From a virus, in the IMG/VR virus record IMGVR_UViG_3300029309_000233, positions 1 through 29,846 of that record: a DNA stretch of 29,846 bases; one strand, 5' to 3'. The notes beneath the pieces were generated by a model. It was given only the letters and a program-made list of their open reading frames with translations, had not been told where the DNA came from and did not search any database. Made by a program: the position numbers and the translations under genes. Below, one piece after another: positions 3,974 through 5,660 of the stretch (positions within the stretch are counted from its first letter, which is position 1; each line of letters opens with the position of its first letter).

Positions 3974-4900
3974 CTACTGTATTAGGTCATCTAGTAGTCC
4001 ACTCTGCAGAATCTGTCTACCTACCCATTCAGATGCCTGTGGTGTGATTGCATTGCCCAGTGCCTTCAGTCGTTTGTTGTGTTCTCTGATCGTGGTTTTG
4101 TCCAGTCCATTGGGAAACCCATCATTGCCTCTACAAATGATGGGTTCAATCGTGCGCCACGTTTTATTGCATCTGCCTCTGTTATGTTCAGTTTTTCGCA
4201 AATTACTATCGGTAACATTGCACCGTTGTTGTGTATTTTGCGTCTGCGCCATGCTGCAGGGTGATGTGGTTGCATCGCTGGCAGTTTTGCTGTGGGTGTG
4301 GGTAGTGTTACATATTTCAATACTGCTGCTGGTAGGCTCAGACCATATCCTCTGTCCTTTGATTTCAAATCTGCGGGTGATATTTTTGCCCGTTTCACGT
4401 CGCTTGCTGTGGGGGTAGGCAACACAAAACCATCTTTTTCTGATATGGGGTAAACCAAAATCTTTTCCAGTTTGTATAGTACACCATTCTGCATCATACC
4501 CTGCTTCGGCAAGGGTTCTAAATACGTCATGTCCCCCCAATCGAAGGATTGCTGCAACGTTCTCAAGGACGATAATTCTGGGTCGTATTTCGCAAATGAC
4601 CCTAAACATTTCGTAGTAAAGACTAGACTTTTTACCATTGTTAATACCTCTTTTTTTTCCAGCTATTGATATGTCCTGACATGGGAAACCACCACACAGT
4701 ACATCTACTGATTCTAGATTGTGTGCACCTACTGTACGTATGTCATCATAGATGATTGCATCTGCCCAGTGTTTACGCAGTACAGACTGACAGAACTGAT
4801 TCTGTTCTACCTGCCAGATGGTCTTGCACTGGGGCAGTGCACGTTCTAACCCCAGTTCAAAACCACCTATACCACTGAAAAGTGAACCCAGTTTGATCAT
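3974..4900 (-). CDS. DNA (cytosine-5-)-methyltransferase
   Basis: 308 residues, normal for a phage C5 methyltransferase. SAM-binding motif I LFSGIGGFELGLE (7-19), catalytic PCQ with C74 (73-75), ENV (113-115), motif VIII around QTGKDFGLPHIRKRW (143-157) and C-terminal motif X RLKALGNAITPQ (277-288) are all present, so the enzyme should be active. It transfers a methyl group from SAM to cytosine C5 in a sequence set by the variable region at about 165-276. Start ATG 4900 has AGAGGTGAC just upstream and overlaps the TGA of the HTH gene. It is last in the leftward early operon. Codons 88-278 also carry a second protein in the +1 frame, and the phage's compositional signature is lost over that stretch. 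Likely role: protection from host restriction. Confidence 0.93.
   Translation of the reverse strand: MIKLGSLFSGIGGFELGLERALPQCKTIWQVEQNQFCQSVLRKHWADAIIYDDIRTVGAHNLESVDVLCGGFPCQDISIAGKKRGINNGKKSSLYYEMFRVICEIRPRIIVLENVAAILRLGGHDVFRTLAEAGYDAEWCTIQTGKDFGLPHIRKRWFCVAYPHSKRRETGKNITRRFEIKGQRIWSEPTSSSIEICNTTHTHSKTASDATTSPCSMAQTQNTQQRCNVTDSNLRKTEHNRGRCNKTWRTIEPIICRGNDGFPNGLDKTTIREHNKRLKALGNAITPQASEWVGRQILQSGLLDDLIQ
4066..4638 (-). CDS. Methyltransferase-companion phage protein, encoded inside the methyltransferase gene
   Basis: 190 residues, wholly inside the methyltransferase gene, same strand, +1 frame. It shows the hallmarks of a protein type often found just downstream of phage C5 methyltransferase genes: a SLRTLQ segment (24-29), KQGMMQNG (45-52) like the usual RSGMMRNG, LPTPTASD (73-80), and the C-terminal LNPSFVEAMMGFPMDWT (164-180) like LNPxWVExLMGFPxGWT. 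Its function is not known to me. At about 4101-4126 the same bases encode GFPNGLD of the methyltransferase and GFPMDWT of this protein. ATG 4638 lies in codons 88-89 of the host gene; I see only a weak purine-rich stretch (GGAAAAAAAAGAGG-like, interrupted) upstream, so expression may depend on reinitiation. CpG density and context change over the overlap, as dual coding predicts. Confidence 0.78.
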   Translation of the reverse strand: MVKSLVFTTKCLGSFAKYDPELSSLRTLQQSFDWGDMTYLEPLPKQGMMQNGVLYKLEKILVYPISEKDGFVLPTPTASDVKRAKISPADLKSKDRGYGLSLPAAVLKYVTLPTPTAKLPAMQPHHPAAWRRRKIHNNGAMLPIVICEKLNITEADAIKRGARLNPSFVEAMMGFPMDWTKPRSENTTND

Positions 4901-5388
4901 CTGTCACCTCTGAACAGTAGAGACATGTGACCTAGCATATCCTTTTGTGACATCTGCTCTAGTTCTGCAAACATTGCTGCAATCTGATTGTAGATGTACA
5001 GGTCACCACACTGACGTGTACCCTTGACCCAGTTGTGTACAGTCTGACGTGTGACACCTAGACGTTCTGCCAGTCCTGCAATGGTCATTTGATGCAATCT
5101 ACACATGACACGTAACCATGCACCAAATGTCAGAGTAGACATCATGTCATAATACATTTGGTGAACTGCAAACTTAGCATTTGATTCTGACAAATGTTTG
5201 ACCATCATACCAGAACTGTACAGGACTGCAACCCATATGAAATCATTTTCAGATTCACACCATTGCACCTTGACCTGTCCAATATTTAGACCACCATTAT
5301 GAATCTGAAAGGTCTTTTTTTTGTGTTCACGTGCTGCAGTTCTGCCCCAGTTTCTAATGTAGTCTCTAGTTGATTTTGATTCTGTCAT
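4897..5388 (-). CDS. HTH (Cro/CI-type) DNA-binding protein
   Basis: 163 residues from ATG 5388, which overlaps the preceding TGA and has AGAGGA nine bases upstream; the open frame extends further (to 5523) only through the neighbouring gene. Residues 1-75 are basic and polar with no recognised domain. Residues about 88-135 form a helix-turn-helix: FGAWL, then MTIAGLAERLGVTRQTVHNWVKG (101-123). The layout FGxWL ... T(I/V)xxL ... G(I/V)xxxxxxxW(V/I)(K/R)G recurs in two other proteins here (27376-27954 and 29447-29701), suggesting a paralogous regulator family. It probably controls phage transcription. Its gene sits directly before the methyltransferase. Confidence 0.8.
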   Translation of the reverse strand: MTESKSTRDYIRNWGRTAAREHKKKTFQIHNGGLNIGQVKVQWCESENDFIWVAVLYSSGMMVKHLSESNAKFAVHQMYYDMMSTLTFGAWLRVMCRLHQMTIAGLAERLGVTRQTVHNWVKGTRQCGDLYIYNQIAAMFAELEQMSQKDMLGHMSLLFRGDR

Positions 5389-5660
5389 TTTCTTTTGTCC
5401 TCTGTCATTGTTGGTTTGATGATGATTGCATGATGAATACCCCAGTGCATTGCAGCAGGGTACTGTTTGTTGATTTTGTTGACGATATTTAGTAACTGAT
5501 AGTAGGTGGGTGGTTTTTTGCACTTCAGAATGTCGTCAATGTTCTGCAGACTGATCAGTGTGACCCTGTGCAGGTCTACATCAGACCACCCCAGTTCATT
5601 CATGTACTTCTGAATCTGTTGCACCATCTGCTTCTGTTGTATGTACTGTTCTGGTGTCAT
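5385..5660 (-). CDS. Hypothetical protein, 91 residues, possible divergent HTH
   Basis: ATG 5660 overlaps the upstream TGA; AGGGGTGCACA precedes it, the same ribosome-binding context as the gene before it. The protein is helical and Gln/Lys-rich at the N-terminus (EQYIQQKQMVQQIQKYM), followed by a stretch (about 24-66) whose spacing of hydrophobic residues resembles a small HTH fold: VDLHRVTLISLQNIDDIL then KKPPTYYQLLNIVNKI. I do not recognise a named family. It lies in the leftward early operon between an unknown gene and a clear HTH regulator, so a regulatory role is plausible but unproven. Confidence 0.65.
   Translation of the reverse strand: MTPEQYIQQKQMVQQIQKYMNELGWSDVDLHRVTLISLQNIDDILKCKKPPTYYQLLNIVNKINKQYPAAMHWGIHHAIIIKPTMTEDKRK

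Follow-up and report, generated by a model that had tools for sequence, protein, structure and literature searches.

Two overlapping reading frames in a phage genome appear to encode complementary parts of one C5-cytosine methyltransferase, with candidate target-recognition cassettes in the smaller chain

Why should a phage methyltransferase gene contain a second open frame of 190 codons, and what would that frame encode? The question arises in IMGVR_UViG_3300029309_000233 (the window, meaning the whole 29,846-nucleotide stretch that was analysed), a tailed-phage contig on which terminase, portal, major head protein, tape measure and primase/helicase were recognisable. The outer frame (positions 3974–4900) encodes a 308-residue C5-methyltransferase catalytic chain, hereafter alpha, with motifs I–VIII and X but without motif IX. 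The inner frame, beta (4066–4638), lies wholly inside alpha in its +1 frame; all features of alpha and beta are on the minus strand. Profile searches of the two frames separately, proposed in a preliminary description of the locus, recognised both: alpha matched Pfam PF00145 (E=9.7e-45) and PHROG 363 (E=3.6e-72), and beta matched PHROG 1008, annotated as 'DNA methyltransferase' (E=1.4e-20). That description took beta for a whole phage gene, normally encoded separately, overprinted inside the methyltransferase. We favour another reading, to which we give a probability of about 0.86, namely that a single C5-cytosine methyltransferase is made as two polypeptides from overlapping frames, with motifs I–VIII and X in alpha and the recognition cassettes and motif IX in beta.

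The position of beta within alpha follows the motifs. Beta starts at alpha residue 88–89, past motif IV (GGFPCQ, residues 70–75; 4676–4693), which contains the catalytic cysteine in single-coding sequence and whose GFPCQ was invariant in the alpha alignment. It ends at alpha residue 278, ahead of motif X (LGNAITP, residues 281–287; 4040–4060), for which LGNAxxP was conserved in the same alignment. These borders are the ones originally described, and both products look intact, as had also been proposed, with motifs I–VIII and X present in alpha and all 190 codons of beta open. Shine–Dalgarno-like sequences were found for both chains, GAGGTG (4905–4910) four nucleotides upstream of the alpha ATG and GAGGT (4646–4650) seven nucleotides upstream of the internal ATG of beta. 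The start of alpha and the end of a repressor-like upstream gene (4897–5523) share four bases, which suggests translational coupling.

Whether the inner frame is coding was examined in the window and in its relatives. When synonymous codons were permuted within the window's methyltransferase, the +1 frame stayed open in 0 of 20,000 shuffles (mean of 7 stops); the third frame over the overlap contains 20 stops. Strong avoidance of CpG marks the whole contig (1–29846; observed/expected 0.32), and the main departure from it is the methyltransferase overlap. The overlap had a CpG ratio of 0.81, above all 2,771 same-size segments outside it (maximum 0.71), which is what lost synonymous freedom would give, and the disappearance of the CpG bias noted earlier was thus borne out. 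We then compared relatives, using 57 complete, distinct overlapping alpha/beta pairs, mostly from viral contigs, among which 19 independent pairs of relatives served for divergence. The fourfold-degenerate sites of alpha are second codon positions of beta. Their divergence was 0.404 upstream, 0.147 in the overlap and 0.263 downstream, i.e. 2.7 times less change in the overlap than upstream (Fisher P=1.6e-29), and the overlap was lower in 18 of the 19 pairs. The amino acid divergence of alpha went in the opposite direction, rising from 0.131 upstream to 0.273 in the overlap. In the stretch of alpha from ENV to motif VIII (HxRxR; 4433–4564), which lies under the N-terminal segment of beta (SSLRTLQQ ... 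KQGMMQNG), fourfold divergence was 0.170 compared with 0.404 upstream.

In matched cassettes of the recognition zone, the divergence of beta by codon position was 0.133, 0.108 and 0.303, a coding pattern, whereas the amino acid divergence of alpha (0.367) was like that of the untranslated third frame (0.368); the cassette pairs were picked by beta identity, which favours the beta figures but affects the alpha/third-frame comparison less. Over the 1,295 codons of these cassettes there were no stops in alpha compared with 73 in the third frame. Both frames of the overlap are therefore coding, and in the recognition region constraint falls on beta while alpha behaves like the shadow.

It is barely credible that beta is a mere shadow, held open by alpha motifs and codon bias and never translated: although SSWRTSQ, SGMMRNG and LNPxFVExMMGFPxGWT are +1 readings of VLENVS, GYDAEW and EPxxRGxDDGxPxRxD, and although the frame overlaps a methyltransferase in most relatives, the shuffles, the constraint on fourfold sites despite faster alpha divergence, the shadow-like behaviour of alpha itself in the recognition zone, the second frame of certain actinophages running on past the alpha stop and two relatives carrying the halves in frame in one chain all contradict it. 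The preliminary description had rested the second gene largely on hallmark words of a second family. The motifs are present, but since several, SSWRTSQ and SGMMRNG among them, are +1 readings of alpha motifs, such words alone could not prove a second gene. Its statement that GFPNGLD and GFPMDWT come from the same bases was correct, although the position is 4099–4120 rather than about 4101–4126. Its central claim, that the 190-codon frame is dual-coding, withstood the question of whether the homologues are only methyltransferase shadows or carry stops, because the two in-frame single-chain relatives, the four actinophages extending past the alpha end and the fourfold constraint together mean that real coding survives.

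The canonical order of a C5-methyltransferase is motifs I–VIII, recognition domain, motif IX and motif X. Alpha has the features of PF00145, with motifs I, IV (PCQ), VI (ENV), VIII and X all found. Its AlphaFold2 model was mostly confident for residues 1–170 and 265–308, its fold matches M.HhaI, and the best PDB matches were M.HhaI and M.HaeIII. Residues 175–260 had a pLDDT of about 32–50; this linker between motifs VIII and X (4115–4378) is predicted to be disordered and is an out-of-frame reading of the recognition region. Motif IX was not found in the same chain as motif X, ahead of which alpha is predicted to be disordered and reads CRGNDGFPNGLD. Judged by the model, residues 175–260 of alpha hold no recognition domain.

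Motif IX was found at the C-terminal end of beta (LNPSFVEAMMGFPMDWT; 4099–4149), the least changed zone of the beta frame, where ARLNPSFVEAMMGFPMDWT aligned without gaps with RRLTPRECARLMGFPDTY of phage KL3 and with the equivalent motif IX of Dcm-type enzymes. A motif IX HMM gave weak scores with distant canonical enzymes (KL3, E=0.12), the two clearest enzymes being matched at the right place, and a strong match with single-chain relatives (Acidimicrobiales genome L171, E=1.5e-14). Using tblastn, 68 phage records matched beta. No model of beta was found in Pfam or NCBIfam, a phmmer search of the PDB with beta returned no useful match, and nine very distant betas, once aligned, proved too diverse to serve as a scan profile. 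The AlphaFold2 model of beta alone was poor (mean pLDDT 58.6), with only the motif IX end reaching ~75–86, so the recognition fold rests on no confident structure; a poor model might be expected for a chain that needs its partner. On the sequence evidence, beta is the recognition and motif IX half of the same C5-methyltransferase, not an unrelated gene, and overlap is usual in its family.

Phages, prophages and plasmids share the layout, which was seen at ~170 places and with few exceptions uses the +1 frame. In a pattern scan that was seeded with beta, and so conditioned on its presence, and that counted a few contigs twice, a detectable alpha accompanied a motif IX match at 177 places; the match was in the +1 frame in 173, in the same frame in two and in the +2 frame in two, and motif X was inside alpha in 157 of the 173. 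The 10 judgeable motif IX places without alpha were all near contig ends. Conversely, a scan seeded with alpha found beta in all nine full-length relatives, a tenth match covering only the N-terminal half. The layout was found in tailed phages, on Leptospira and Acinetobacter plasmids, and on contigs of Bacteroidota, Bacillota, Cyanobacteriota and Pseudomonadota. The idea that beta is normally encoded separately was rejected, as about 170 examined places show it overlapping a methyltransferase and the scan gave no clear stand-alone copy. On the Leptospira interrogans and Acinetobacter baumannii plasmids (L016 and L017), the overlapping pair is annotated as one DNA cytosine methyltransferase. 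In Edaphocola aurantiacus (L180), a single alpha is followed by two motif IX matches, of which the second lies in the +2 frame and is possibly a second beta.

Two further layouts were found beside that of the window. In the actinophages Eagle, JangDynasty, Euratis and Juno112, alpha stops right after motif VIII and the second frame alone carries motifs IX and X. In two relatives, phage Nimbo gp63 and the Acidimicrobiales genome, both halves are in one frame; gp63 of this Mycobacterium phage (L148:360–2384) is a 674-residue single-chain C5-methyltransferase with motifs I–VIII, then four cassettes opening with LPTP, motif IX and motif X. In Doomphist (L151), a related phage, the corresponding region carries an annotation of split genes. 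Layouts with a single chain, one switch and two switches thus exist side by side.

A programmed frameshift might instead fuse both frames into one long polypeptide. In its favour, single-chain relatives exist, and for the Corndog-type phages of Cluster O a frameshift, a hop or splicing was left open in 2015, beside two products (PMC4351075). However, beta of the window ends before motif X, so a single frameshift gives no complete enzyme and a second shift back would be required. Moreover, an internal ATG with a Shine–Dalgarno match of at least 5 was present in 49% of the 57 loci compared with 19% expected from synonymous resampling of alpha, a level reached in 0 of 300 simulations, and M.EcoHK31I has been described as two polypeptides (PMC3404938). 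We therefore regard a fused product as improbable, and two polypeptides as likelier than one joined chain on these sequence features. The Corndog-type methylase pair resembles the window in its +1 overlap, and coding potential with the strongest ribosome-binding site was reported inside the upstream frame (PMC4351075). It differs in where motif X is found: its large frame terminates after motif VIII, leaving motif X to the second frame, whereas in the window motif X stays in the large frame; JangDynasty, a Corndogvirus, was among the phages that we examined.

In M.EcoHK31I of E. coli (YGGCCR), the small chain is read from an alternative frame within the large chain. By its published description this enzyme is the closest known case: it consists of two polypeptides, motifs I–VIII and X lying in the larger chain together with a predicted recognition domain, and motif IX in the smaller (PMC3404938). 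The division of motifs is the same as in the window. In the window, however, the evidence points to recognition in the small chain, with multiple cassettes, and the published placement is itself a prediction. If M.EcoHK31I is followed, the contribution of beta would be limited to motif IX and a scaffold, and recognition would fall to a domain in the alpha linker. This has little chance of being right, given that the linker is predicted to be disordered and diverges like an untranslated frame, that alpha of the JangDynasty type ends right after motif VIII, and that in Nimbo the LPTP cassettes follow motif VIII and precede motif IX, where a recognition domain normally lies. Recognition appears to reside in the small subunit, and beta very probably picks the DNA target from interchangeable modules, judging by their position and variability. 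The earlier suggestion that the overlap bears on target recognition fits the predicted cassettes between motifs VIII and IX. The window system also differs from M.EcoHK31I in being carried by a phage, and none of the neighbouring genes examined was recognised as a restriction enzyme.

M.AquI (CYCGRG) is likewise a C5-methyltransferase that occurs naturally in two chains, but its cut is inside the variable region, motifs IX and X are both in the small chain and an extensive overlap is not described (PMC3404938). Motifs IX and X are not together in the small chain of the window; they are in the second frame of Eagle, JangDynasty, Euratis and Juno112. An excerpt of the GeneTack survey, which covers conserved frame transitions, does not mention C5-methyltransferases. 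A phage methylase with an out-of-frame HNH insertion was considered and set aside as a different phenomenon.

The part of beta that separates the GMxxNG segment from motif IX consists of consecutive ~30–50-residue cassettes (median 44 residues), each opening with LPTP or similar. The window has two, type M (LPTPTASDVKRAKISPADLKSKDRGYGLSLPAAVLKYVT; 4306–4422), which is also present in L091, and type A (LPTPTAKLPAMQPHHPAAWRRRK...ADAIKRGAR; 4150–4305), which groups with the 29-member cassette group A. Among the 57 loci, 14 had one cassette, 33 had two and 10 had three, in the combinations A, B-A, E-A, C-A, B-C-A, B-C-D, G-A, G-L-D and L-D-A, with M-A in the window. Otherwise similar enzymes differed in their cassettes. 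L142 and L094 were 92% and 93% identical in the flanks (motifs I–VIII and IX–X) and 65% between them, with C-A compared with B-A, and L024 and L091 were much alike in the flanks, with A compared with M. Phages Nimbo, Shivanishola and HumptyDumpty had four or more cassettes. The longest array seen was that of Arthrobacter phage HumptyDumpty, with approximately seven LPTP-type cassettes in a row (L150:697–1974).

Could the cassettes be structural repeats or spacers rather than recognition modules? No target is known for any of them, modelling yielded no confident fold, and this explanation has an appreciable chance. We nevertheless consider it doubtful, as the cassettes lie exactly between motifs VIII and IX, form a mosaic among otherwise similar enzymes and are in the size class of recognition modules. 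Methyltransferases of Bacillus temperate phages have been described as arraying several recognition domains in a single enzyme, which protects against many restriction systems (PMC12707154, citing Trautner 1996). By analogy with these arrayed domains, the LPTP cassettes are probably target-recognition modules, of which two are predicted in the window, one to three in the 57 relatives and more in HumptyDumpty and Nimbo. The Bacillus multispecific enzymes are single polypeptides, whereas motifs and putative modules are divided between two frames in the window and the cassettes are in a separate overprinted chain, for which multispecificity is suggested by the same analogy. With recognition apparently in the small subunit as mix-and-match cassettes, the enzyme would probably be a multi-target anti-restriction methylase.

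Taken together, we propose that one mRNA would give alpha, the catalytic chain, and beta, started at the internal ATG from its own ribosome-binding site. Beta would supply the recognition region and motif IX, and the two chains would come together in the arrangement of an ordinary C5-methyltransferase. In the recognition region, alpha would link motif VIII to motif X through a disordered, unconstrained stretch in which only stops must be avoided. The exchangeable LPTP cassettes, M and A here, would each probably be one target-recognition module, and with recognition built in this way a phage could change or add specificities. The likely role would be to shield phage DNA from host restriction. 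We infer translation of both chains, their assembly, recognition by each cassette and the anti-restriction role from these features.

A broader proposal is that a widespread phage system stores recognition modules in an overprinted subunit, where cassettes are gained, lost and swapped with both frames kept open, so that one recombination event would re-target the small subunit and rewrite the tolerated disordered linker of alpha. The system would have originated from a single-chain enzyme that underwent a frame switch once or twice, and all three stages would still exist. We see the odds on this broader proposal as evenly balanced.

New here are the selection-test evidence of dual coding, the apparent placement of recognition in the small chain, the cassette mosaic, the layouts found side by side and the wide distribution. 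Two products from overlapping frames are a candidate answer to the Corndog-type puzzle of 2015, two products or a frameshift. The overlap is long and ancient, with each protein constrained in one part and free in another, and it is maintained across phages and prophages of many bacterial groups. Annotation often gives the large chain only, or names both 'DNA methylase'. If the cassettes are indeed recognition modules, phages would possess a large natural repertoire of interchangeable C5 specificities, overlooked by present annotation.
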